A program made the position numbers and the translations under genes. A model generated the notes under the pieces. The model saw only the letters and a list, made by a program, of their open reading frames with translations, was not told where the DNA came from and ran no database searches. Shown piece by piece: positions 600-19,980 of a DNA stretch of 64,000 nt. Position 1 is the first letter of the stretch. Each line of letters begins with the position of its first letter. The DNA comes from Candidatus Obscuribacter phosphatis (GTDB lineage Bacteria; Cyanobacteriota; Vampirovibrionia; Obscuribacterales; Obscuribacteraceae): NCBI GenBank assembly GCA_001899315.1, contig MOYA01000003.1, forward strand, positions 86,369 through 150,368, in the 5' to 3' direction.

Positions 600-2789
600 T
601 TGTCAGCATCCGCTACTTTAGTGCATGAAGTAAACTTCTCTTTTCGCCCTGAAAGCTTTGAAATGGAAAACAATCAAGAAGGTCAAAAAACTCCCACAGC
701 TTATCTGGTCGACCTGGTATCAAACCGCAAGATTCCAGTCGCCACGCCTAGATGCAGGGTAGGACGCGATGACTTAAACGACATCGTCATAAGCGGCGAC
801 CAGTCAATCTCGCGCTTTCACTTTATTATCAGCTACGAAAACGACGAATTCACAGTACAAGACGCCAAAAGCAGACACGGTACCTTTCTAAACGGCAACC
901 AGCTCACTTCACCCGAGACTATCAAAGATGGAGACGTCTTGAAGGTCGGGGTTTCTTTATTTTGGTTTGTCGTCGAACAGGCAGACAAAGCTGCCGGAGA
1001 TGGCGGCGAGCCCTCAAACAAAGCTATTGAGGGACAAGCTGACAGTGCCGTCGACATGAAAGAAGCAAAAGACATAGATGGTCCTATACCGGGCGCTAAA
1101 GATCACACCCAAGAGATGGCTAAACCAGATGCCAGCCTCATCGAAAAATTAGAACAAGCAGCTAATTCAATTCAAATTCAAGAAGAGAAGAAAGAGGAAG
1201 AGAAACCGAAAGGCAAAGCTTCGCTCGCCTCTCTGCTCTCACCTCTAGCTGATGGTGGCGACAAAGAAGACTCTAAAGAAGACTCGAAAGAAGATGATGT
1301 CAAAGCGAAACTAGCAGCGAAAGACAAAGAACTTCTCAAAGAAATAGAAGCGGCAGCAGAATCGGCCGCCGAAGAAGCCACCACCGGCGATGCGGCAGCA
1401 GCCAAGAAATTGGAGAGATTCCCCGAGCGTATACTCAATAAGCCGAGCGATACGGTGACGATAGAAGCACTGCCCATGCCCGGCACTCTGCAAGAGAAAC
1501 CAGCGCAGTCGCCTGAAGGCTCTGATACTGGCAAAGACGAGAAAAAGGACGGGGCAGAAAGCAAGTCAGAAGCGAAACCAGCCGGATCTCTTGAACCTCT
1601 TGAACCGGTCGAACCGGCAGAAAAAGTAATCGAACCGCCGAAACTAGCCTTGGGCAATTTGCTTGCCCAGTCTGAAAGTAAGAGGGAAGAAGAAGAAAGA
1701 GAAAGAGAAGAAGAAGAAGCGAAACGTCGAGCCGAAGAAGAAGCTGAAGCGAAGGGGCTAGAGGCAGAACCGGAAGCAAAAGACAACAACGGTAAACATG
1801 ATACAGCCGTTGATCTTCCGGCGGTTGAGTCTCAAGCGGAACAAGCGAAGGAAAGCAACTCAGAAGAGACTCAATCGGCAGAGACTCAATCGGCAGAGAC
1901 CACTATCGATGCTTCTGAAGTGCAAAAACAGTCTCAAACCGGTGAAATCAAACTAAAAGCAGATGGCGGCGAAAGTTCCGCCCCAATAGAAGCCGGGCCG
2001 ATAGCGGCGACAGAAGAGGTGAAAGAGATAATTCCAGAACCTCAGGTATCCGTGCCTGTAGAGGCAAATCAAGACAAATTGTTAACAGCGGGGGCGAGTT
2101 CAGTGCCGGATTGGTGTAAACGTTATTTTTCTGATGAAATTGGAAAGCTCAATACAGAGCTGGACGAACTCAACGAACAGGTAAAACAAGCCCAGCAAAA
2201 AATCAGGGATGTAGAGACCAGGGTAGCCCTCACCAAGGGCATTCGTAACACCCTACTCACCACCACTGGTGACGAACTGGTGGAAGCTTGCGGCAAGGTA
2301 ATGGGTCTAATTGGTTGGAAAGTGACCATCGCCGCCGATGATAAGAATGAATTGAGACTGGAATCGGACGACAAACAAGTTTCGATTGCCCGAGTTATTT
2401 GGACGACCACTCAAGCGGAGCGCTCGCACCTCGGTCAACTTTCCATCTCTCAGACTCGCTATTGGTGCGAAAAAGGCACCGAGCCTAAGGGCATACTTAT
2501 TGTCAGCAAGATAGGCGATGGACCACCCCAAGTTGGTGGAGACAGCGCTGAAGATGTAGAGTTGCAAGAATATGCCTCTAAGAAGAATGTCTGCCTGATG
2601 ACCACCCTGCAACTGCTCTCACTCTATAAAGAAGTGGCCCTCGGCGAAGGTAAGCCGGAAGCCTTGAGAGAAGCTGTAATTCGAGGAAGCGGCTGGTTGA
2701 ACGGCTACAACCTGGAACCAGGCAAGACCGAACCGAGTGACAAGGAAGAAGGCGTTAACAAGCTCAGCTCGCTTCTTTCCGCCACTTAG
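600..2789 (+). CDS. FHA-domain protein with long acidic linker and nuclease-like C-terminal domain
   Basis: Residues ~30-125 form a forkhead-associated (phosphothreonine-binding) domain: CRVGRDDLNDIVI, SISRFHFII and SRHGTFLNG are the expected glycine-arginine, serine-arginine-x-histidine and histidine-glycine-threonine signatures. Residues ~130-505 are a low-complexity E/K/A-rich linker with short repeats. Residues ~510-555 look coiled-coil. The last ~165 residues form a globular alpha/beta domain (CGKVMGLIGWKVTI, GILIVSK, CLMTTLQLLSLYKEV) that recalls the restriction-endonuclease-like fold, but I cannot identify catalytic residues. The start drawn is TTG; an in-frame ATG at 663 keeps the whole FHA domain and may be the real one. 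It could read out Ser/Thr kinase activity such as the kinase at 18061. It ends at a strong terminator. Confidence 0.8.
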   Translation: MSASATLVHEVNFSFRPESFEMENNQEGQKTPTAYLVDLVSNRKIPVATPRCRVGRDDLNDIVISGDQSISRFHFIISYENDEFTVQDAKSRHGTFLNGNQLTSPETIKDGDVLKVGVSLFWFVVEQADKAAGDGGEPSNKAIEGQADSAVDMKEAKDIDGPIPGAKDHTQEMAKPDASLIEKLEQAANSIQIQEEKKEEEKPKGKASLASLLSPLADGGDKEDSKEDSKEDDVKAKLAAKDKELLKEIEAAAESAAEEATTGDAAAAKKLERFPERILNKPSDTVTIEALPMPGTLQEKPAQSPEGSDTGKDEKKDGAESKSEAKPAGSLEPLEPVEPAEKVIEPPKLALGNLLAQSESKREEEEREREEEEAKRRAEEEAEAKGLEAEPEAKDNNGKHDTAVDLPAVESQAEQAKESNSEETQSAETQSAETTIDASEVQKQSQTGEIKLKADGGESSAPIEAGPIAATEEVKEIIPEPQVSVPVEANQDKLLTAGASSVPDWCKRYFSDEIGKLNTELDELNEQVKQAQQKIRDVETRVALTKGIRNTLLTTTGDELVEACGKVMGLIGWKVTIAADDKNELRLESDDKQVSIARVIWTTTQAERSHLGQLSISQTRYWCEKGTEPKGILIVSKIGDGPPQVGGDSAEDVELQEYASKKNVCLMTTLQLLSLYKEVALGEGKPEALREAVIRGSGWLNGYNLEPGKTEPSDKEEGVNKLSSLLSAT
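1853..1903 (+). repeat. Short in-frame repeat inside the FHA-protein linker
   Basis: A 15-base unit encoding ETQSA occurs in consecutive copies (EETQSAETQSAETT). It does not break the frame and sits in the acidic linker, where replication slippage would be tolerated. Confidence 0.6.
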
Positions 2790-2859: not shown

Positions 2860-4782
2860 CTATTGTTTCTCTTTCAACTTGAATAGCTCTTGTTCGAGCT
2901 TACCTTTCTCGAGGTTCATCTTAAAGAGACGATCATTCAAGTCATAGATCTCTTTCTGCATCTCGGCCTCGCGGTCTAGAGTGCGATCGGACAAACGGCG
3001 CAAAAGTCCTGCCTTGGCGCGCTTCACCCAATCATTGAGCACATCGATGGGCAGCTGATACTTAGCAGCAGCCTGTTCGGCGGTCAATTCTTTACGCAGA
3101 ACCGCCATAGCAATTTCAGCGCGGCGCCAGACATCAAAGGCTGCATAGTTGAACTTAACCCCGGTCAATCTATAGATACTCGTCGAATCTACAGTGCCAA
3201 TCTCGGTATAGTTACCAAGAAAGCGCTCGACAAAATGATGTTCCTGCAAAGCGTCTCTCACCGGAAAGTCCTGCAAATAGACCAAGTTCGGACGATTCTT
3301 TAATATATCTTCGCCAAGATTCTCCACCACCTGCTTTTCGATGACGGCAAACTTATCTTTCAGCTTGGGATTGACCTCAACCGCCGAACGAATCATAGTA
3401 ATCATGAAATATAGATAGCGAGAGCCTGGAGGGCGCCCAGCCTGCAACTGGGCCGGATAGCCAGGCCGAATGCCCGAGCCGATATGAACGATCTTGTCGT
3501 CCGGTTGACTGTTCTCAATCATACTAAAGAAAGTCTCGTCAAAATCGTTGCGTGGTGAAAAACCGCTGTATCCAAGCCCTTCCAGATTAATATCAAAGCG
3601 ATCAGGCGGCACGATTCTATATTCTTCGATACAAAGATTGGCATAATGCGCGGTGCCGCCAAAAACCGCCAGCGCCGCCAAAAGCGAAAAGCCCTTCCAC
3701 ATCTGAAAAGCCTTAAGCAGGGGCGCTGAACAGATCAAACCGGCTTCATACGCCAAAAGCACCTGGGCAAACAAGGCCATCGGCAAAAGTCTATAAGTCC
3801 AAGCTTGGGCACCTTGAATATAGACCACCATGGCCCCCAAACAAATAAAGATAAAGGGAGAAAGCCACGCCCCCGCCCGGCTGCGACCAAGCGAGGTGGG
3901 CAAAATCAGAAAGGCGATGGTTAAGGAACCGACCAGCTGCAGGAAAGGTCGAATGAAATAATCATAGCTGCAAAGCATGTGCGGAAAGCACTTACTGCTC
4001 CAAATGGTGCCATATTGATAGATAGGCAGGGCTTGCTCAAAGAGAACTTTGAGGGCTTCTTTAGGCAGACGCAAAAACAATAAGATATAGCCTAAGGGAG
4101 CTACCAAAAGACTGAGCGTTTCAATAGAGATAAGAGCCCGCCAATTGCGGGAAGAGAGAAGGAAGCCTAGCTCGGCGCAGAAAGCCAAAAAGAAGAACTG
4201 TGGCTTTAGAGATAAGAGCAAGCCGCAAAAGAAGCCAATCGGTATAGAGAACCAGTTTGACGGTCTAGTGCCGAAATGTCGAATACCTCTAAGCAAGAAA
4301 TAAGGCATAAAGAAGAAGGTGAATAGATGTTCTCTTTGCCCCATGTCGTTTTCCATCAAGGTGGTGAAATAAGCATAGGCAAAGAGAAAAGGCAAGAAAG
4401 GAAGAACCGGCACCGACTTACGATAGACATAAAGCAGGGCGGCCATGACCAAAATTGAAATGGCATGCAAAGCTTCAACCACCAAAGCCAGAGCAAGAGG
4501 CGGCGGCAAATGGAAAAGACGCGCCACCATTATCGGTACCACGTTCAAATACATAATCAAGGGCGGATTAAAGTCAAAGAAATCGCGATAAGGAATCTTT
4601 CCAGCCAAAATAAGCTCGGCCATGGCTAGATAGACCGACTGATCGGAACAAACAAAAAGCGGATGGGCCGTCCAGTAGAACACTCTCTGCAGGGCGAGCA
4701 AAAGGCAAGCGGCAAGAACCAAAACGTAGGCAGCTGAGACGATCCAATATTCCAAAGGCTTAGACTTGATAAAACTATTCAT
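2860..4782 (-). CDS. GT-C-like multi-spanning membrane protein, type A1, with C-terminal HTH/coiled-coil segment
   Basis: 640 residues with about ten hydrophobic segments. Residues ~45-75 carry DQSVYLAMAELI, then GKIPYRDFFDFNPPLIMYLN. This resembles the first extracytoplasmic loop of GT-C glycosyltransferases (ArnT/PMT/Dpy-19-like), where an acidic residue is catalytic and the sugar donor is a polyprenyl-phosphate sugar. A soluble part follows the last membrane segment and holds the block SGIRPGYPAQLQAGRPPG, which recurs in the two other type-A paralogues. Residues ~553-590 (AEIAMAVLRKELTAEQAAAKY, then LNDWVKRAKAG) look like a transposase-type helix-turn-helix, and ~600-640 like a coiled coil. 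The ATG overlaps the stop of the upstream type-B gene by four bases, implying translational coupling. Substrate unknown. Confidence 0.78.
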   Translation of the reverse strand: MNSFIKSKPLEYWIVSAAYVLVLAACLLLALQRVFYWTAHPLFVCSDQSVYLAMAELILAGKIPYRDFFDFNPPLIMYLNVVPIMVARLFHLPPPLALALVVEALHAISILVMAALLYVYRKSVPVLPFLPFLFAYAYFTTLMENDMGQREHLFTFFFMPYFLLRGIRHFGTRPSNWFSIPIGFFCGLLLSLKPQFFFLAFCAELGFLLSSRNWRALISIETLSLLVAPLGYILLFLRLPKEALKVLFEQALPIYQYGTIWSSKCFPHMLCSYDYFIRPFLQLVGSLTIAFLILPTSLGRSRAGAWLSPFIFICLGAMVVYIQGAQAWTYRLLPMALFAQVLLAYEAGLICSAPLLKAFQMWKGFSLLAALAVFGGTAHYANLCIEEYRIVPPDRFDINLEGLGYSGFSPRNDFDETFFSMIENSQPDDKIVHIGSGIRPGYPAQLQAGRPPGSRYLYFMITMIRSAVEVNPKLKDKFAVIEKQVVENLGEDILKNRPNLVYLQDFPVRDALQEHHFVERFLGNYTEIGTVDSTSIYRLTGVKFNYAAFDVWRRAEIAMAVLRKELTAEQAAAKYQLPIDVLNDWVKRAKAGLLRRLSDRTLDREAEMQKEIYDLNDRLFKMNLEKGKLEQELFKLKEKQ

Positions 4783-6497
4783 TTGACCGCCGCCCTACTT
4801 TTGAAAACAGTGAGGGCATAATAGGCGCCCAAATACTCTCGTGGCTCTTTGTTGTCGGTCAAAAAGGCTGTATCGCCGATGCGTTCATAGTTCTCATCAA
4901 CCGAGTTCAAGAGCCCGGCCTCTTCCAAGAACTGATAGAGATAATAACCATGAGCCAAGATAAGGGTAGCCTTCTTGCGATCAAGATCTTGCAGAGTCTG
5001 GGCAATAACATGCTCGTAAAACTCTCGCATATCGCCCTTCAGTTCATTAGTCTTCTTCAGAGCTAAAAGTATGCGCGCCGGTCTGCCATTGAGCAGATAA
5101 CCACCCGGTGGTCTTTCCAAATTAAAAAGCAATGGATAAGCCGGATCCGGGTAGTCAGACAAAATATAGACCGCTTCCTTCCATTTAGAATTATGCTCCA
5201 CCATAATGTTGATATCTGACAGACCTTTGATTACCCGCAGCGGATGTGGGTTTATACCTTCAGAGTAAGCGTCTTCAAAGCGCTTATTTAAAAAGAAAAA
5301 GAGCGAAAAGGTAAGAGTCAAACGAATACTCAGGTCAAAGATAAGAGGACCAAAAGAGCTAGGCATGCGACTTTTGATCAAATCGAGCGTCCAAGAAAGG
5401 CTGGACGAAAAGAAAATAAAAAGCAAGGCGAGATTAGCCCAGACAGCTAAAACCAAGTCACGGGCAAAGCCCTGCTTCTCAAGCAAGAAAATTAGCATAC
5501 CGCCGACCAGGGCCATAGCCAAAGAGGCAATCCAGGAGGAACGCAGGGCAGCTGCAGCCGCGAACATAAGAGCCGGGCAGGCCAGATAGAAAACTTCCTT
5601 ATGGTCTGGTGCACCGTCCCAGCCGTTAATGCCATCATCAAACATTTGATAAGAAAGCATTTTGAGCGGCACCACCCAATGTTCAAAGGCATGCCGTACC
5701 TCTTCACTCAAAGAAAAATAGTGCAAAAGGGCGCCAAACAAAGTTAAAACCATGGACAAGAAACCGGAAGAGAAAGCAAAGCGACTGAGGGCAAGAGCAT
5801 TTAGCCTTAGGGCAGCCAAAGTGCAAAGCAACATAATGACCGGGAAGGGATAATCAAGCAGAGAAGCGATACCGGCAGCAAGCCCTAAAGCAATCGAGAG
5901 ATAGCGATTGAAACCAAGCCCTAAACCGGTTAACCAGACATAGACCAGCCAAGGGGTCAAAGTCAAAGCCAAGAGAAACTGCACATCACCAAATTGCAAT
6001 CTTTCATAGATTGTAAAAATAGCCAGTACAAGCAGGTAAGAAGTGGAAGAGGTGTCAATCTGGGCGAGAGCCTTTTGCAGAGTTTCTCTCTCTTCGCTAG
6101 GTAGAGGAAAAGCCAGCCTGGAAGCCAACTGCCGGCAAGCGCTGCGAAACAAATAGTAAGTGGTAAGGAAAGACGAGAGCAAAAGAAAAAACACACCATA
6201 TTTGGTGTATAGCTCGACACGTAGTGGAAAGAGCCCTCCCAGAAGCTGCTGCAATAAGTAGGGAATTTTCCCTAGTTCGAATACCAAAGGCGGGGCGAAA
6301 TCGAAGTAATCGACATAAAGACTCTGACCAAAGAGCAAGGTCTGCGAAAGACTGAGATGGAGAGTCAAAAGCGAGGGAAGATCGCCTGAACGCGTTGATA
6401 GATCGTGCAATAAGAAGAGAAGGAAGGGCAAGATCAAGCCGACCATACAAAGATCAAGCTTGGCAATAGGACTATTTGTCTTTGACCGGTCTTCCAT
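4779..6497 (-). CDS. GT-C-like multi-spanning membrane protein, type B1
   Basis: 572 residues, strongly hydrophobic with about ten membrane segments. The early loop (RSGDLPSLLTLHLSL, then YVDYFDFAPPLVFELGKIPY) aligns in position with the type-A loop but has its own signature. Near the C-terminus SEGINPHP and YPLLFNLERPPGGYLLNGRP are shared with the type-B paralogue at 13420-15207. It is first in a two-gene minus-strand operon with A1. Conserved pairing of one A and one B gene in both clusters suggests the two act together, perhaps as a heteromeric glycosyl transfer or lipid-linked glycan machine. Precise function unknown. Confidence 0.72.
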   Translation of the reverse strand: MEDRSKTNSPIAKLDLCMVGLILPFLLFLLHDLSTRSGDLPSLLTLHLSLSQTLLFGQSLYVDYFDFAPPLVFELGKIPYLLQQLLGGLFPLRVELYTKYGVFFLLLSSFLTTYYLFRSACRQLASRLAFPLPSEERETLQKALAQIDTSSTSYLLVLAIFTIYERLQFGDVQFLLALTLTPWLVYVWLTGLGLGFNRYLSIALGLAAGIASLLDYPFPVIMLLCTLAALRLNALALSRFAFSSGFLSMVLTLFGALLHYFSLSEEVRHAFEHWVVPLKMLSYQMFDDGINGWDGAPDHKEVFYLACPALMFAAAAALRSSWIASLAMALVGGMLIFLLEKQGFARDLVLAVWANLALLFIFFSSSLSWTLDLIKSRMPSSFGPLIFDLSIRLTLTFSLFFFLNKRFEDAYSEGINPHPLRVIKGLSDINIMVEHNSKWKEAVYILSDYPDPAYPLLFNLERPPGGYLLNGRPARILLALKKTNELKGDMREFYEHVIAQTLQDLDRKKATLILAHGYYLYQFLEEAGLLNSVDENYERIGDTAFLTDNKEPREYLGAYYALTVFKSRAAVK

Positions 6498-11522: not shown

Positions 11523-13427
11523 TCAAGGCGCCCGCAGCTTGCCAATCTCTTCATTGAGTCGCCAGTTCTCGCGGTAAAGCTCCTCCATTTTCTGCAAGAG
11601 CGCCCCCTTGTCATCCAAGACTCTATCGGTCAGACCATCGTCAAGAGCCTTGCGCCCTCGCTTCACCCAATCTCTAACCACAGGCAGAGGCACCTGTTTC
11701 TCTGAGGCGGCCTGCTCTTCGCTCCAGACCCCGCTTAAGACCTTGAGGACGATTTCTCGACGGGCGGCAGTGCTGTATCTTGTCAGATCGACCTTGCCCC
11801 CGGTGAACTTATAAACTTGCGCCCCATCAACCTCGCAGACCCGGCTATAGGCGCTCAAATATTTATCAACAAAGTTATAGGGCTTGATCAATTCAGCAAT
11901 TGGGCATTCCTGCACCAAAACCAGGTTCACCTTGTTTTTAGCGATGTCTTTGCCGAACCTCTCAATGGTCTCGGCTTCCAGACGGTCAAAGACTGCACTC
12001 AAAGATGGCTTGGTCAGACGCGCTTGCGAAATCATTGTCAGCGGATAGCCATAAAGAAAGACACTGCCCGGTGGACGACCAGCCTGCAGCTGAGCCGGAT
12101 AGCCAGGTCTTATTCCCGAACCCATATAGACAACGGTATCGTGAGCACCGGTATTTTCTACAATGGTATAAAAAGTATTATCAAAGTCTACACGCGGATT
12201 GAAGCCGCTAAAGCCAATCTTACTCAGGTCGAAGCCTTCTTCTTTGGCCACTTCATAATCGCGTTCGTTCATTGTGAAATACTCGCCGGTATAATTGAAC
12301 GAATAAATGAACAAGCCCAGTGAAGCCAACAATGCGATACCCGGCACACGTTCTTTAAAGCGCTCGTAAACGATATTAAATACGGTGCCACACTCCAAAG
12401 CCAAAAGCAGCTGGCTATAGAGAGCCATAGGCAACAGACGATAAGTCCAGGCATGCCCACCAATCAGATAATTGAAAAGACCGGCAAGGGCCAACATAAA
12501 GGCACCGCTCAACCAGGGATTTCGTCTGCGCAAAACAACAAAGAAAAAAGCTCCGACCAAAAACTGATTAAAGGGCTCGGTAAAATAATAGGTGCCGCAA
12601 AGAGAATGCATAAAACTCTTAGCGCCCCAGAGACTGCCGTATTGATAGACAGTAAGCGCCAAATCGAAGAAGACGCGCAATGCTTGCTTAGGCAAAGAGA
12701 AGAAGCAAACCAAATATACTAGCGGGGGCACCAGCAAAGCCAATAACTCTAGATAAGGCAAGCGCCGCCCGGCTGGCCTCAATGAAAACTTTCCGGCATA
12801 AGAGAGGAAACCAAGCTCGGCAAAGAGCCAAATCAAGGCGAAATGAGGCTTGAGAGACATCAACAAGCCGGCAAGAGCGCCGGTAAGAATTGCCAACCGC
12901 CTATCTATTTCTTTCTCTTCTTGCTTGAGATAACGCAAACCCCTAAGAAAGAAGAAAGGCATAAAACCAAGCGTAAAGAGATGCTCTCTTTGCCCATGAT
13001 CGGCTATCAAGCCTTGCGAATACAGAGCAAAAGCAAAGAGCATCGGCACAAAGGCCGGTGCCAAAAGGGTGCGACGAAAGGCAAAAACAAAATAAGCACA
13101 CAAGGCAGTGCTGAAGATATGAAAACACTGCACGGTAACATTTAGACCCAGGGGCAAGGGCCAATGGAAAAGTTTTGCCACCGCCACAGGTATCACATTC
13201 AGATACATGATCAAGGGCGGATTGAAGTCGAAGAAATCGAGATAGGGCACCTTACCTTGCAAAATAAGATTACCGCTCTCGACATAGACAGACTGATCGG
13301 CGCTTATGGCCAGCTGGTGCAAAAACCAATATGGAAACTTAGCACTGAGGATGGTTAGGAAAGAAAAAACCACCAACAAAAAAACCAGATCAAGGCGCCG
13401 CATTTTCTCTTGCTTGAGACTATCCAC
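11523..13427 (-). CDS. GT-C-like multi-spanning membrane protein, type A2, with C-terminal HTH/coiled-coil segment
   Basis: 634 residues, clear paralogue of the gene at 2860-4782. The early loop is ADQSVYVESGNLI, then GKVPYLDFFDFNPPLIMYLN, and the late soluble block SGIRPGYPAQLQAGRPPG is almost identical. The C-terminus (~553-592: REIVLKVLSGVWSEEQAA, then VVRDWVKRGRKAL) again looks like a transposase-type helix-turn-helix, followed by a heptad-rich helix. It overlaps the upstream B2 gene by eight bases. Likely a polyprenyl-phosphate-sugar-dependent glycosyltransferase by fold; acceptor and donor unknown. Confidence 0.78.
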   Translation of the reverse strand: MDSLKQEKMRRLDLVFLLVVFSFLTILSAKFPYWFLHQLAISADQSVYVESGNLILQGKVPYLDFFDFNPPLIMYLNVIPVAVAKLFHWPLPLGLNVTVQCFHIFSTALCAYFVFAFRRTLLAPAFVPMLFAFALYSQGLIADHGQREHLFTLGFMPFFFLRGLRYLKQEEKEIDRRLAILTGALAGLLMSLKPHFALIWLFAELGFLSYAGKFSLRPAGRRLPYLELLALLVPPLVYLVCFFSLPKQALRVFFDLALTVYQYGSLWGAKSFMHSLCGTYYFTEPFNQFLVGAFFFVVLRRRNPWLSGAFMLALAGLFNYLIGGHAWTYRLLPMALYSQLLLALECGTVFNIVYERFKERVPGIALLASLGLFIYSFNYTGEYFTMNERDYEVAKEEGFDLSKIGFSGFNPRVDFDNTFYTIVENTGAHDTVVYMGSGIRPGYPAQLQAGRPPGSVFLYGYPLTMISQARLTKPSLSAVFDRLEAETIERFGKDIAKNKVNLVLVQECPIAELIKPYNFVDKYLSAYSRVCEVDGAQVYKFTGGKVDLTRYSTAARREIVLKVLSGVWSEEQAASEKQVPLPVVRDWVKRGRKALDDGLTDRVLDDKGALLQKMEELYRENWRLNEEIGKLRAP

Positions 13428-15207
13428 CCTCTAGCCCCCCGGTGCGACGCGGCCTTGGTGGTGGTTCAAGCAAGCTTTCATTTCGGCGCAAGAAAGAATC
13501 GAAGCCGAAATAATAGCCAAGAAACTCGCGCGGCTGACGGTTATCACTCTGAAACAAACAGAAGCCACCCTCGCTATAATTCTCTTGCAAAAGCTTGAGC
13601 AGCCCGTTTGCTTCCATAAACTCTTTGAGATAACAACCATGTACCAAAACCAAATCGGCCCGGGAACTGGAAAATTCAGCTTCTAGATTACCGACTATAA
13701 GGTTCTTTAGACGCTTCCATCGCTCATCTAAAAGACAAAGTCGCTCCAGCTTCATCAAAAGCCTTATCGGACGACTATTAACAAGCATGGTGCCGGAACT
13801 ACGCTCTAAATTAAAGAGCAAGGGAAAAGTCGAATCAGGATAATCACAAAACATGGCAACGGGATGCTGCCACTGCGAGTGCTGCTGCACAAACAAATTG
13901 ACGTCGGGCAATTGGCTCTTTTCTTTGGGATGAGGGTTGATTCCTTCGCTATAGTCATGCTCGATGCTGACGGCAAAATAGCCGGCATAAAGAACAACGG
14001 CGGCGCTAAGCCCCACTGTGACAAAGCGCCTGCAGGCGCTTTCCGCCTTAGAGAGACTGCGACTGATATAAGCCAGACAAAGCAAAGCAGACAAGATAAG
14101 CCCCGACATAGCCAAAACAATATCGCGAGTAAAGCCTTGCTTCTCTAAAATAAAGAAGAAGAGCCCGACAACACCAGTGGCGATGGCAGGTCTGAGAACC
14201 GGAAGACGACGGTCAATAAAGATATAGAGGATGCAAACAGCGACGAAAAAATAAAACACATAGGAAAGATCCGGCGAAGAACCTTGCCCCTGAATCATTT
14301 CATCTAGTTCGCCGAATTGTAGCTGTCTAAGCGGAATGATCCATTCGAAATAAGCTTTCTGCATCGCCTCCGGCCACTTGCGCAAGCGCAGGAATACCAC
14401 CATGGCTGAAAGGGCATAACCAAGCAGATTGTAGGAAAGGACCGGTTTGAACTGCCAGAAACTAGCTACCAGAAATAATTCCAGCACCAAAGGCACCAAA
14501 ATGTAGGGATATTCGAGAGAAAAGGCAAGCCCGACCACTGCACCTAGAGACAAAGAGAGCCAGACTGAAAACTCGATGCCCCGATAAGCCAAATAGCGCA
14601 TCAAGAGCCAGGGAATGGCAGCCAAGCCCATAAGATATTGCACTTCGCCAATCTGAAAACGAGCCATATAGGCAAGCAATACCGGGGCAAGAGCAAAGGG
14701 CAAAGCCGCCAGCTCGATCTCGCAAGCAAGCGGCAGAGATTGCTGGCTCGCACCAGCAGCCTCACTCGGGCCAGTTATAGGTTCAGATTTGGTACTTTCA
14801 GGTCGCCCAGCCAAGCGCTTTAGGGCATGACGAGCCAAGAAAAAGGCAGCCAGGGAAGAGAGCAAGGTAAGGAAAAGGAAGAGAGACTTTACAACTTCTT
14901 CAAGCCGACAAGCCAAACCAAATGAAAGCAAGAGCCCATGCAAAAAGGGAGGAAACTTGAAAAGTTCATACACGATGGGCTGGCTGAGATCGATAAAGTC
15001 GATATAAGGCACCTGGTCTTGACAGACCAAGCCATTAATATAGAGCCTTTGAGCCACCAGACTAGAGAGGTCGCCGCGGCGGTGCAAATAGTCATACGCA
15101 ATAAAAAGAAAAGCAGGAAGAACCAGCGCCCCATAGGCCAACCAGGAAGCAAGCCAGGAGCCGCCTCCAGACTGCTGTTTCTCCTGAGAACCTTCCTGCA
15201 CTGCCAA
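13420..15207 (-). CDS. GT-C-like multi-spanning membrane protein, type B2
   Basis: 595 residues, paralogue of 4779-6497. Shared signatures are RRGDLSSLVAQRLYING with YIDFIDLSQPIVYELFKFP near the N-terminus, and SEGINPHP plus FPLLFNLERSSGTMLVNSRP near the C-terminus. About ten membrane segments lie between. A proline/arginine-rich C-terminal tail ends in GGLEGG. It lies between A3 (upstream) and A2 (downstream, overlapping) in one minus-strand operon. Confidence 0.72.
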   Translation of the reverse strand: MAVQEGSQEKQQSGGGSWLASWLAYGALVLPAFLFIAYDYLHRRGDLSSLVAQRLYINGLVCQDQVPYIDFIDLSQPIVYELFKFPPFLHGLLLSFGLACRLEEVVKSLFLFLTLLSSLAAFFLARHALKRLAGRPESTKSEPITGPSEAAGASQQSLPLACEIELAALPFALAPVLLAYMARFQIGEVQYLMGLAAIPWLLMRYLAYRGIEFSVWLSLSLGAVVGLAFSLEYPYILVPLVLELFLVASFWQFKPVLSYNLLGYALSAMVVFLRLRKWPEAMQKAYFEWIIPLRQLQFGELDEMIQGQGSSPDLSYVFYFFVAVCILYIFIDRRLPVLRPAIATGVVGLFFFILEKQGFTRDIVLAMSGLILSALLCLAYISRSLSKAESACRRFVTVGLSAAVVLYAGYFAVSIEHDYSEGINPHPKEKSQLPDVNLFVQQHSQWQHPVAMFCDYPDSTFPLLFNLERSSGTMLVNSRPIRLLMKLERLCLLDERWKRLKNLIVGNLEAEFSSSRADLVLVHGCYLKEFMEANGLLKLLQENYSEGGFCLFQSDNRQPREFLGYYFGFDSFLRRNESLLEPPPRPRRTGGLEGG

Positions 15208-15234: not shown

Positions 15235-16854
15235 CTACTGCTGCAATTTATAAACAGCACTGCCCTCGCAATAACCCAACAAACTATATCCCTGCAAATA
15301 CTTGTCGATAAAACCGAAACGCGCCAGTTCAGCCCCGATAGGCTCCAGCTGCAAGTAAACCAGGGTGGGCTTCCTTGCCACTATGTCATTACCAAGTTCG
15401 CTAATCATTTTCTCTTCCAAAATTTGAAACTGTTTGCGCCAGCCCTCATCTGTCTTTGAGCGCGCAGCCTGCAAAAGCATCATAAGAGGGAAATAGAGAT
15501 AACGACTGCCTGGTCTTCTATCGGCTTGCAACTGGGCTGGATAGGCTGGTCTTATGCCGCTCGATATAGTCAACACACTCTGACCGGCAACACTGTTTGC
15601 AGTTATCGATAAAAAAGCAGAGTCGAGATCGCTGAGCGGACTGCCGGCAAAAGCACCACTTTCAGCCTTGAACATTGGCGCCGCTTGCACGGCAAGTATT
15701 TCGTGTACGGTCTTAAAGCCGGTCAAATACAAAGCCGCAAAAGACACTACAGTCGGTATCAAAGAGAATCTCAAAAGCAAGCTCTGAGGCAATCTCAAAG
15801 ATGTGATTTGCATACGAGAAAATCTCACCCAGAGAGCATCGAAACCAGTATAAAGGAGGGCATAAAGCAGACTAAACAAAGCAAGCAAGCTAAAGAGTTG
15901 CAAAGGCAAAATACGGTAAGTCCAGGCCTGGGCACCGACTAAATAGTGCAGCAAACCAGCCAGAGCCATAAGAAGGTTGACCAAGCCCAAGCGTCTAAGC
16001 AAAGGCGGAAAGTTTTGCCAGGCACCGGTGATATAGACAAGCAGCGCCGCAAACAAAAGCAATAGCGGATAGTAGAAATAATCGAAGCCGCATAGACAAT
16101 GCATAAATGACTTAGCGCTCCAGCTAGAGCCATAAAAATAAAGCGGCAAGGCCCGCTGAAAATAGATGCGCCAAGCCTCAAGCGGCAAAAGCACACTGCC
16201 GACATTGATTGCCGCATAAAGCAGTCCTAGAGACTTTAGCCCCGGGTCAAAGAGCCGCCCCTTTCTCCAGATATAAATCGTTCCCTCCAAGAGCAAGACA
16301 AAGATGAGAAACTGCGGCTTAAGAGCCAAACCAAGAGCGGCAAGCAAGGCTAAGCCGACTCTTAGCCGGCTACTAAAGACGGCTTTTGCGGTCTCACCGG
16401 CAGTCGAAACTATTCGATAAAGCAACCAGGGTAGAAAAGTCAGCAAGAAGAGATGCTCGCGCTGACCGAAATCGGAAGTGAGGGATTGATTGAAAGATAG
16501 ATAAACCAGAAGGAAGGGAAACCTGACGTAAATTGGAATTTCGCTCTTGTTTAGCTGCAATAGTCGAAACAAGAGGACAAATGAAGCTAAGAAAAGAAAC
16601 TCGATGCTTAGGTTGAAGACCAGAGGCAAAGGCAAAGAGTTGAGCCCGGGCAGCTTTGCCACCGCCACCGGTATTACGCTCAGATACATAATCAGAGGCA
16701 GATTAAAGTCAAAGAAATCGAGGTAAGGCACCCGCCCCTGCAAAATCAGCTTGCCGCTCTCAAGATAGAGAGCTTGGTCGGGCGAAATGGCGAGCGGATG
16801 CAGAAAGATAAAGCTCAACTTGTAGACGGTCATAGCGATGGTAACGACCAGCAA
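15235..16854 (-). CDS. GT-C-like multi-spanning membrane protein, type A3 (start uncertain)
   Basis: 539 residues, third type-A paralogue: SPDQALYLESGKLI, then GRVPYLDFFDFNLPLIMYLS, and later SGIRPAYPAQLQADRRPG. It ends right after the position where A1 and A2 begin their HTH segment, so it lacks that C-terminal addition. The drawn TTG start falls inside the first membrane segment. A better N-terminus (MMSRTVRKRSRLKLF) begins at ATG 16910 but in another frame. Leads the A3-B2-A2 operon, 27 bases ahead of B2. Confidence 0.7.
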   Translation of the reverse strand: MLVVTIAMTVYKLSFIFLHPLAISPDQALYLESGKLILQGRVPYLDFFDFNLPLIMYLSVIPVAVAKLPGLNSLPLPLVFNLSIEFLFLASFVLLFRLLQLNKSEIPIYVRFPFLLVYLSFNQSLTSDFGQREHLFLLTFLPWLLYRIVSTAGETAKAVFSSRLRVGLALLAALGLALKPQFLIFVLLLEGTIYIWRKGRLFDPGLKSLGLLYAAINVGSVLLPLEAWRIYFQRALPLYFYGSSWSAKSFMHCLCGFDYFYYPLLLLFAALLVYITGAWQNFPPLLRRLGLVNLLMALAGLLHYLVGAQAWTYRILPLQLFSLLALFSLLYALLYTGFDALWVRFSRMQITSLRLPQSLLLRFSLIPTVVSFAALYLTGFKTVHEILAVQAAPMFKAESGAFAGSPLSDLDSAFLSITANSVAGQSVLTISSGIRPAYPAQLQADRRPGSRYLYFPLMMLLQAARSKTDEGWRKQFQILEEKMISELGNDIVARKPTLVYLQLEPIGAELARFGFIDKYLQGYSLLGYCEGSAVYKLQQ

Positions 16855-17032: not shown

Positions 17033-18067
17033 GTGCCCAGCCCGGGAGCCAGTTTGATAGACAACCACCCGATTCTCGGACCAGCTCGATTATATTTCAA
17101 CCAGCAGAAGCATGTCGAATTGGACGAGACGGCGCTTCGCTATCTTTCTTTCGAACTGGCTGAAACCTACAGCCTGCCGCCGGTAAGGGCACTACATTGG
17201 CTATCGGCAGCCCCCGCCCAAGTGCAGCAATATATAACTCGCAAAAGTCTTTATGAAGCAGTGGAGTTCTTAGCCATTTTCCACGCTCTTGGATTTTGCT
17301 ATTGGACCGAACCGCGCTGGACCTATGCCAGCTATGGCACCACTTACAATGGCAGTCTGGCTCTCTTACACAGTTTGAGAGAAAATATCGACCGCCTCAA
17401 AGAACTCTACCAAAAACCTGGCGCTAAACCGTCCGATTTAGCTCTAGCCTTGAGCGGACAAAACTCACTGGCTCTGATGGAAAGACGTTTCGCTAACTTT
17501 ATGGAACTAATGCAAGCTCTTTCAGAGGGTTTTGGCGATGAGCTCTTAAAGAAAGAGAAAGCCCTGACTAAAGCCTACAAAATCAAGGAGCGCTTGCCGG
17601 GCTATCAAGACAAGAGCAAAACCACACTTGCCTCAGGCGAGACGATAGAGATCAACTTTCTCAAACGCGCCCAGCTTTTGGTTAGCGACATCGACTATAT
17701 GATGCGCTTCAAGAAGATTGAGGGACTGGCACAAATAGATGGACTGGAGCAGATGGAGGAATTGACAGCCTTTGCCGACTATAAACTACCTCAGGTCTTG
17801 AGAGACTGGGGAGTCTTTAACTACAGCAAAGAACTGACCGACTTGATCGATAAGAAGACCGTGCTCGCCCAAGACAGCCCGGAAGAGATAGCAATTAGAT
17901 GCGCCACTCTGGTGGCGGTGGAAAAGCTGAAAGAAGCTCTGACCCGACTTTTGACCGGCACGAAATTGAAGTCTTCTGAAGTAGATAACTTACTTTGGCT
18001 CAAGTCGCAAAAGGAAGCCAATGACAAAACCCGACCCTACCACCGCTGTTTGACCGATCGTTATTGA
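17033..18067 (+). CDS. qng1: Queuosine 5'-phosphate N-glycosylase/hydrolase (queuosine salvage, DUF2419)
   Basis: 344 residues spanning the full length of the queuosine-salvage family (eukaryotic QNG1/DUF2419). Visible hallmarks: FCYWTEPRW in the N-terminal half, RLPGYQD, RAQLLVSDIDYM, TAFADYKLPQVLRDWGV, EIAIRCATLVAVEKL and the terminal RPYHRCLTDRY, equivalent to the family PHHRT-x-YY ending. Known members release the free base queuine from queuosine 5'-monophosphate for reuse at tRNA position 34. The start is GTG. Its stop overlaps the convergent kinase gene by seven bases. No queuosine biosynthesis gene is nearby. Confidence 0.85.
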   Translation: MPSPGASLIDNHPILGPARLYFNQQKHVELDETALRYLSFELAETYSLPPVRALHWLSAAPAQVQQYITRKSLYEAVEFLAIFHALGFCYWTEPRWTYASYGTTYNGSLALLHSLRENIDRLKELYQKPGAKPSDLALALSGQNSLALMERRFANFMELMQALSEGFGDELLKKEKALTKAYKIKERLPGYQDKSKTTLASGETIEINFLKRAQLLVSDIDYMMRFKKIEGLAQIDGLEQMEELTAFADYKLPQVLRDWGVFNYSKELTDLIDKKTVLAQDSPEEIAIRCATLVAVEKLKEALTRLLTGTKLKSSEVDNLLWLKSQKEANDKTRPYHRCLTDRY

Positions 18068-19980
18068 CTATCGTCCGATTCAAATTGAGGCACAGACCTA
18101 GCCTCGACCAGCCTAAGGGACGGACAGTTAACCATAGCCTTCTTCAATGCCGCCACCTGCGGCTCGCTCCAGAGCGAAACATCAATTTTTAGATCTTTCA
18201 GATTTTTGCACTGGCTTAAAAAAGACAATACCTTAGGATCAATACGATCACCGCTCAAGTCAAGCATAAAAAGACCCGAGGCAAGCGGCTTCAACTCATG
18301 CAGGTCGCGCCCGGCAACACCACAATTGATAAGCTTCAAAGAAAACAGCCCTTGCAGTCGACCGACAAGAGAAAGCGACGCATCATCGAGGGGCATATCT
18401 TCCAGACTAAGCATTTGTATAACACCCGGCTTAAGCTTGCCTAAAAGCGGTTTGATATCGCCTGGCATCTTGGCCAACTCTAAACTTTGCAAATAAGATA
18501 AGCGCTTCAGCCGAGTCAAAGCTTCGGCACTGATTTTTGTGTGCCTGACATTGAGATATTGCAATGAGGCAAAGCCGTCGATGCTTGAAAGCAAGCTATC
18601 ATCAGCCTCAGTGTGTTGCAGATCCAGCTTTTTCAGCCCCTTAAAATAAGAAGCGGTTTGAAGAAAGCGGTCTAGATTTTGAGCCCCTTTTGGAAAATGC
18701 AGACTATCGAGAACATCGCTGTCAAAACCCAAAAGAAATTGCGGTAAGGCTAAGAGGTCGGCTTTGACAGCCACAGCCAGATGCTCAGCCGGACCGACAC
18801 GCAAATATCGCCCGTTGAAAAAATCGAGGGGACGCTCGACATTGAGGTTGGCGTCATGTACAAAGAGAGGTGAATACGGCATTTTCTCCGGCAGCAAGTA
18901 AACCCGCCCACCCAAGACTGAATTGCCGACCAAAGCAGGCCGCGCATAGCTAGCCGGTCTTACCGCCGTTGCCGCCTGCAAAAGCTGCCTTCTGTGAGCT
19001 TCTTCATCGGCCAAACTTGGAGTAAGACTTTTGCTGGCCAGAGACGCCCCGCTCTCTACGCCGCTCTCCAAGCTGCCCCCAGCCTTGCCCGGGTTCTTGC
19101 CCCAACCAAAGATCAGCAGTATCGAAACACTGCCAAGCAGGGCCAGCACGCCCAAAATCAAAGATAAGCGCGAAAAGACCTTGACCATATCTCTTTCGGC
19201 ATCGCTCTCAAAAGGCGAGGTTTCGCCCTTAAGCTTGCGCCTAAAGGCAACCAAATCAACAAGAGCCTCGGCCGCCGACTGATACCGTTCATCAGCTTTC
19301 TTAGCTAAAAGCCGACAGACAAAGTCTTCTAAAAACAAATCGTAATCGATGGTGCTATTCAACTGCGCAAGCCTCGGAATAGGCGCTTCCTGATGCAAGA
19401 CCAGGGTTTCCATAAGATTGTCACCGAGAAAAGGCGGTGCCCCGGTGAGCATCTCAAAGAAAGTAATGCCAAAAGAATAAAGATCTGATCGAGCATCGAG
19501 AGTACGCCCAAGACTTTGCTCTGGACTGATATAGACCGGTGTACCAATAACATCACGAGAACCGGTCAAGCCAAGGCTTTCACCCCCCTCAGAAACAGTG
19601 GTGCGAGCCAAGCCAAAATCGAGCAGACAAGCCGAGATTTGACTATCTTCCTGCCCGACCAAAAATATATTGCCAGGCTTGATATCGCGATGAATCACAC
19701 CTCTACTGTGGGCGTAGGCAAGCGCTTCTAAAATAGATATGGCTATATCTATCGCCAAAGCCATGGGCAAGGGACTTTGACGTGCCAAGCGACTGTCTAG
19801 GGTCTCACCTTCCATAAGCGACATTACATAATAAAGCGTGGCTCCATCATGCACACCGCAGTGAACAATCTTGATCACACCAGGATGGTCCAGCCTTCCC
19901 ACCAAAAGAGCTTCTCTGATAAAGCGCAATCTCTTTTTCTCGACCAGAGATGCTTTATCGTTCAAGACTTTCAAAGCCAA
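18061..19980 (-). CDS. Membrane Ser/Thr protein kinase with C-terminal leucine-rich repeats
   Basis: Hanks-type kinase. From the TTG at 19980 the sequence starts with ALKVL, which contains the ATP-anchoring lysine, then IHRDIKPGN (catalytic loop), LLDFGLA (metal-binding DFG) and GTPVYISPEQ (APE equivalent). A single membrane segment (~residues 279-297) follows. The C-terminal ~200 residues are leucine-rich repeats (SLQYLNVRHTKISAEALTRL and similar), placed outside the cytoplasm if the topology is standard. The glycine-rich loop is encoded further upstream, in frame, up to 20121, so this coordinate understates the protein. The upstream neighbour on the same strand is the REC-GGDEF-EAL gene. 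A receptor-type kinase is likely; ligand unknown. Confidence 0.85.
   Translation of the reverse strand: MALKVLNDKASLVEKKRLRFIREALLVGRLDHPGVIKIVHCGVHDGATLYYVMSLMEGETLDSRLARQSPLPMALAIDIAISILEALAYAHSRGVIHRDIKPGNIFLVGQEDSQISACLLDFGLARTTVSEGGESLGLTGSRDVIGTPVYISPEQSLGRTLDARSDLYSFGITFFEMLTGAPPFLGDNLMETLVLHQEAPIPRLAQLNSTIDYDLFLEDFVCRLLAKKADERYQSAAEALVDLVAFRRKLKGETSPFESDAERDMVKVFSRLSLILGVLALLGSVSILLIFGWGKNPGKAGGSLESGVESGASLASKSLTPSLADEEAHRRQLLQAATAVRPASYARPALVGNSVLGGRVYLLPEKMPYSPLFVHDANLNVERPLDFFNGRYLRVGPAEHLAVAVKADLLALPQFLLGFDSDVLDSLHFPKGAQNLDRFLQTASYFKGLKKLDLQHTEADDSLLSSIDGFASLQYLNVRHTKISAEALTRLKRLSYLQSLELAKMPGDIKPLLGKLKPGVIQMLSLEDMPLDDASLSLVGRLQGLFSLKLINCGVAGRDLHELKPLASGLFMLDLSGDRIDPKVLSFLSQCKNLKDLKIDVSLWSEPQVAALKKAMVNCPSLRLVEARSVPQFESDDSQ

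Follow-up and report, generated by a model that had tools for sequence, protein, structure and literature searches.

The A and B genes of the window

The window, that is, the whole 64,000-nucleotide stretch analysed here (G000:C3:86369-150368), is part of a 5.49 Mb genome, in which three A genes, all on the minus strand, and two B genes encode large membrane proteins (Table 1). Among named organisms, the nearest relatives are MAGs of Candidatus Obscuribacterales and Melainabacteria, which would place the source in this order. A1 and A2 carry a C-terminal tail with a helix-turn-helix (HTH) and a coiled coil. The initial annotation had A3 ending just before this part, which we confirmed, and the positions first assigned to the HTH and the coiled-coil helix of A1 were also correct. 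A third tailed paralogue is present in the same genome outside the window (G000:C1:1628382-1630247). Other genes of the window encode an FHA-domain protein that has a coiled coil and a long acidic linker and whose gene is convergent with A1 (600-2789, plus strand), a Queuosine salvage protein (17033-18067, plus strand; PF10343, 3.6e-38) and a protein in which a leucine-rich-repeat-like region, for which LRR_14 scored below its cut-off, comes after a protein kinase domain (18061-19980, minus strand).

Table 1 Features of the A and B genes, in positions of the window.
Feature	Positions	Strand	Description and basis
A1	2860-4782	-	640 aa; GT-C-fold membrane protein with C-terminal HTH and coiled coil
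A1 membrane part, residues 1-389	3616-4782	-	11 TM helices and two juxtamembrane helices in loop 1; AlphaFold2, Foldseek, K/R distribution
A1 Asp47 codon	4642-4644	-	Position of the GT-C catalytic Asp, where the first juxtamembrane helix starts
A1 C-terminal alpha/beta soluble domain, residues 390-540	3163-3615	-	Predicted extracytoplasmic; AlphaFold2, K/R distribution
A1 OrfA-like three-helix HTH, residues 551-597	2992-3132	-	Profiles, hhalign, AlphaFold2, Foldseek
A1 leucine-zipper-like helix, residues 604-639	2866-2973	-	AlphaFold2, heptads, GCN4/Fos-type PDB matches
B1	4779-6497	-	GT-C homologue without A's catalytic residues; directly upstream of A1, 4-base overlap
A2	11523-13427	-	634 aa; tailed paralogue
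A2 OrfA-like HTH, residues 553-599	11631-11771	-	Tail alignment, Pfam scan, tail profile
A2 coiled-coil helix, residues about 606-632	11532-11612	-	Tail alignment, heptad periodicity
B2	13420-15207	-	GT-C homologue without catalytic residues; directly upstream of A2, 8-base overlap
A3	15235-16854	-	539 aa; untailed paralogue that branches among tailed proteins

Fold and topology of A1 and its pairing with B

The AlphaFold2 model of A1, built with 29 homologues, reached a mean pLDDT of 88.9 and a pTM of 0.82. When the full model was searched with Foldseek, the top matches were all GT-C enzymes (E 3.2e-6 to 6.9e-4), including OST subunits, ArnT, AftA, AftB, AftD, PglB and DPY19. The model thus has the GT-C transmembrane fold, bearing out the initial view of the body of A1 and A2 as a GT-C-like membrane protein. 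According to the GT-CA rule, the catalytic Asp sits at the tip of juxtamembrane helix 1 (JM1), and in AftB this helix and JM2 lie between TM1 and TM2 of an 11-TM protein with a C-terminal periplasmic domain (PMC12041299). Asp47 of A1 indeed begins the juxtamembrane helix 46-59; this position holds Asp in 42 of 43 A proteins and Glu in the remaining one, and Asp is absent from it in all 17 B proteins. For A1 and A2, the most likely identity is a lipid-linked-sugar glycosyltransferase of the GT-C(A) fold, with a predicted catalytic competence.

The AlphaFold2 helices place TM1-6 of A1 at residues 10-31, 94-119, 126-142, 150-169, 176-190 and 194-211, and TM7-11 at 220-237, 274-293, 304-324, 329-361 and 364-389. 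In this 11-TM reading, Asp47 and the juxtamembrane helices 46-59 and 74-90 fall in the first outside loop, and the K+R fraction among the 29 homologues is 0.132-0.199 in the six inside stretches versus 0.048-0.091 in the five outside loops. Taking helix 74-90 as TM2 was rejected for two reasons: all K/R-rich loops would then be outside, and the corresponding helix of AftB is juxtamembrane. No hydrophobic segment was found after A1 residue 389, so the tail would be outside, like the C-terminal domain. An arrangement of A1 with the N-terminus inside, 11 TM helices, and the C-terminal domain and tail outside the cytoplasm is well supported as a prediction from the number of helices, the bias in charge and the analogy in fold.

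Each of the 18 distinct tailed A genes has a B gene immediately upstream in the same orientation, and the two usually share a few bases; one B copy is truncated at the edge of its contig. Over B's length, B and A are homologous (hhalign 100%, E 2.6e-54), but the residues kept in A are replaced: Asp47 by Trp, Gly or Leu, Arg150 mostly by Leu, Glu151 by Gln, and both Lys193 and Arg331 by Asp. On account of these replacements, B is probably not a glycosyltransferase of A's mechanism. The charge swaps at positions 193 and 331 are conserved among B proteins, and this conservation points to a new function and not to simple decay; the pattern as a whole suggests that B and A form an active/inactive pair. 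Untailed A genes of the same clade are also preceded by B, indicating that the tail is not needed for the B-A pairing.

The tail, its relatives and its history

The C-termini of A1 and A2 had been described as sharing a motif laid out like an OrfA/DUF1153-like HTH and the leucine zipper that goes with it. Both contain the motif (RRAEIAMAVL..TAEQAA..DWVKRAKAGL in A1, RREIVLKVL..SEEQAA..DWVKRGRKAL in A2), and the proposed check by profiles and AlphaFold against HTH families did find HTH similarity: the assignment is borne out by the tail profile, hhalign, AlphaFold and Foldseek. Taken singly, both sequences stay under the Pfam cut-offs, with weak matches of the A1 tail to HTH_28 (0.0036), DUF1153 (0.01) and HTH_23 (0.017). 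An NCBIfam scan of the tail gave weak transposase/sigma matches and nothing stronger, and a PDB sequence search with the A1 tail alone or the whole A alignment returned no significant family. An HTH_28 family search of the window's own genome also returned no tails, and the tail profile was needed.

Sixteen tails from relatives align almost without gaps across the HTH; seven of them match HTH_Tnp_1 (best 7.6e-5) and seven match HTH_28. In related genomes, the profile of these tails matched genes of ~100 aa over nearly its whole length, namely IS3-type OrfA genes of G019 (E 1.7e-7), G018 (6.3e-7) and G007 (6.8e-6), and elsewhere in the phylum it matched a 155-aa frame of another family end to end (7.4e-10). 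The OrfA matches scanned (L082, L084 and L109) carry HTH_Tnp_1 or DUF1153 above the curated cut-off, and a DDE integrase-type frame (OrfB) lies directly downstream of OrfA in G019 (L082) and G007 (L084). Alignment of the tails with five OrfA proteins by hhalign gave a probability of 97.3% and E 1.6e-11 over 84 columns. An HTH-only profile from which the zipper had been removed gave OrfA and other HTH proteins at 7.8e-6 to 0.035, the next frame at 0.78 and none of 3738 shuffled frames at E 1, in a ranking that was partly pre-selected because its loci came from the full tail profile. OrfA thus still ranks on top, and the zipper alone is not the cause of the match.

The model of A1 has tail helices at 551-562, 568-574, 579-597 and 604-639, and the tail modelled by itself adopts the same layout. 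Its Foldseek matches are the HTHs of DeoR, SigC/SigW region 4, KorA and C. glutamicum Cgl2762; none reaches 0.001, so that Foldseek supports the HTH fold but does not prove it. The first three of these helices form an HTH related to HTH_Tnp_1, and the fourth is a leucine-zipper-like helix, with GCN4/Fos-type matches for A1 in the PDB. Heptad periodicity is above that of shuffles (p<0.05) in 11 of 15 tails and weak in four, and the zipper is missing in one tailed protein (L063). Taken together, sequence comparison firmly relates the tail of A1 and A2 to the N-terminal part of IS3-type OrfA. Neither A1 nor A2 is followed by an OrfB-like frame, that is, by the DDE part of an IS3 transposase; the neighbours are GT-C, FHA and TPR genes. 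The own genome gave no further tail-profile match even at E<=1, so the source element is not visible there.

Similar HTHs are found in other proteins of Obscuribacterales. In G003, an OrfA/HTH_28-like HTH is N-terminal in a soluble protein with an MCP signalling domain (L089:643-1755, minus strand; G003:C23), adjoining CheR- and CheW-like frames. Similar HTHs without a Pfam family match occur at L111:721-2115 (minus), L112:783-1328 (minus) and L087:1456-2166 (plus), and the one at L112 runs into the beginning of a Ser/Thr protein kinase-like frame. Besides G003, the genomes with such an HTH in other proteins are G011, G028 and G065. These non-GT-C proteins of G003, G011, G028 and G065 are presumably cytoplasmic, and the lineage seems to have reused the OrfA-like HTH more than once.

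Between the orthologues of G000 and G002, dN/dS was 0.029 in the tail and 0.043 in the body of A1, and 0.027 and 0.040, respectively, in A2; by this measure the tail of both is firmly placed under purifying selection. Unlike A1 and A2, the third paralogue (L048:2344-4272, minus strand; G000:C1) has a higher dN/dS in its tail (0.217) than in its body (0.124). A search for the same fusion across related genomes, as the initial annotation had proposed, found 18 distinct tailed proteins in 9 of 53 Obscuribacterales genomes, from three genera of one family; none was found in a sample of 385 other genomes of the phylum (386 with the window's own genome, by long-frame matches). The tailed proteins are all members of a single supported clade, which has 27 proteins and includes nine untailed ones. 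About six changes between tailed and untailed are needed on this tree, for example one gain and five losses. A single origin is not shown by the tree itself; what favours it is the homology of the tail. A3 is nested among tailed proteins and probably lost its tail secondarily. That several relatives have lost the tail yet keep B shows that it is dispensable for the core function of the enzyme. We infer that the transfer went from transposase to enzyme.

Role of the tail and comparison with known systems

We consider it fairly probable that the tail is an exapted oligomerisation or docking module on the extracytoplasmic end of a GT-C glycosyltransferase that works in a putative B-A complex. A1 and A2 would span the cytoplasmic membrane; the catalytic Asp47 and the alpha/beta domain would face its outer side, and the OrfA-type HTH and leucine zipper would have been fused to the end of this outer domain. 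The tail would then be outside the cytoplasm and without chromosomal DNA to bind. The zipper may join A to a second A subunit or to a different envelope protein, and the HTH may act as a compact protein-protein interface; the unit acted on would probably be the B-A complex, with B lacking catalytic residues. In OrfA and OrfAB of IS911, the HTH and LZ are the DNA-binding and multimerisation parts (PMC2909936). With the tail outside the cytoplasm, multimerisation is the one of these two properties that might still be useful. The initial annotation had offered a DNA-binding regulator, a dimerisation module and coincidence as options, and the dimerisation module remains the best of the three, with oligomerisation itself a presumed property. 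More tentatively, and at somewhat less than an even chance, gene fusion may have carried a transposase-type DNA-binding module to the other side of the membrane, where it would now be the interface for assembling a two-subunit glycosyltransferase that consists of one active and one inactive GT-C protein.

The tail might instead be a docking site for a specific envelope protein, either B or an unlinked partner, and no oligomeriser. Although B accompanies every tailed A gene, its pairing with untailed A genes of the same clade as well means that the tail is not required for pairing, and the zipper resembles self-pairing coiled coils, so we regard this as unlikely. Lower still in probability is an extracytoplasmic HTH that binds a polyanion, such as extracellular DNA, an acidic glycan or the phosphate of a lipid carrier, and thereby positions the enzyme or its acceptor. 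The strong constraint on the HTH fold and the basic tails of A1, A2 and some other members would agree with it; however, the charge is not conserved, and several tails are net negative.

A cytoplasmic tail would make A1 a membrane-tethered DNA-binding regulator that couples the state of the glycosyltransferase to transcription. The tail is truly related to a DNA-binding HTH with a dimerisation zipper, and A1's own HTH has a net charge of +5. However, topology, which the initial annotation had itself named as decisive, speaks against it: a regulator needs an even number of TM helices, whereas a count of 11 places K/R-rich sequence in each of the six inside stretches and K/R-poor sequence in the five outside loops, and on this predicted N-in/C-out topology the HTH is not in the cytoplasm. 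The structurally similar ArnT and AftB also have their C-terminal domain outside, and in a weak charge test the net charge of the HTH averaged +0.5 in 16 tails (zero or negative in nine) versus +2.0 in five OrfA proteins. We therefore consider such a regulator very improbable. A random C-terminal extension of HTH-like composition, or an assembly artefact, is refuted: the single-sequence HTH matches do stay below curated cut-offs, but the tail occurs in 18 proteins of nine genomes and three genera, has a dN/dS of ~0.03 in A1 and A2 and matches OrfA end to end with no shuffled decoy at E<=1. Taken together, HTH homology, purifying selection and the predicted outside position exclude coincidence and argue strongly against a chromosomal regulator.

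HTH domains are normally read as a sign of DNA binding and regulation. Here there is good support for homology to a DNA-binding domain, but the topology is against that function, which is a warning against annotation by domain name and makes the tail a testable case of an HTH put to structural use. If the two-subunit reading is true, the HTH has changed both its place and its function. The conserved pairing of an apparently active with a degenerate GT-C protein, found in a bacterial group with little biochemistry, offers a second testable idea, on GT-C assembly. An open-access literature search, which does not prove absence, found no report of a GT-C/HTH fusion or of a domesticated-transposase membrane protein.

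The OrfA of IS3-family elements (IS911/IS2 type; HTH_Tnp_1, DUF1153-like) has an HTH followed by a leucine-zipper helix, as in the tail, with an end-to-end profile match. Unlike OrfA, the tail is C-terminal on a membrane enzyme, predicted to be extracytoplasmic, without OrfB/DDE and less basic in many members. The HTH core of DUF1153 and of the CtrA inhibitor SciP, a small soluble cytoplasmic regulator, also aligns with A1 (0.01 and 0.024), below curated cut-offs. Among GT-C enzymes, the PMT-family protein O-mannosyltransferases work as dimers and carry an added lumenal domain, MIR (PMC7759382). MIR is a beta-trefoil whereas the A1 tail is an HTH, and the Foldseek match of A1 with Pmt1-Pmt2 is weak (E 0.4). 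ArnT has the same fold by Foldseek, with a TM-score of 0.52-0.53 by target length, and AftB shares the 11 TM helices, the C-terminal periplasmic domain and the Asp at the tip of JM helix 1. Sequence identity of A1 to ArnT and AftB is 12-15%, and A1 has no Pfam or NCBIfam family; unlike both, it carries an extra HTH and coiled coil and is paired with a catalytically degenerate homologue.
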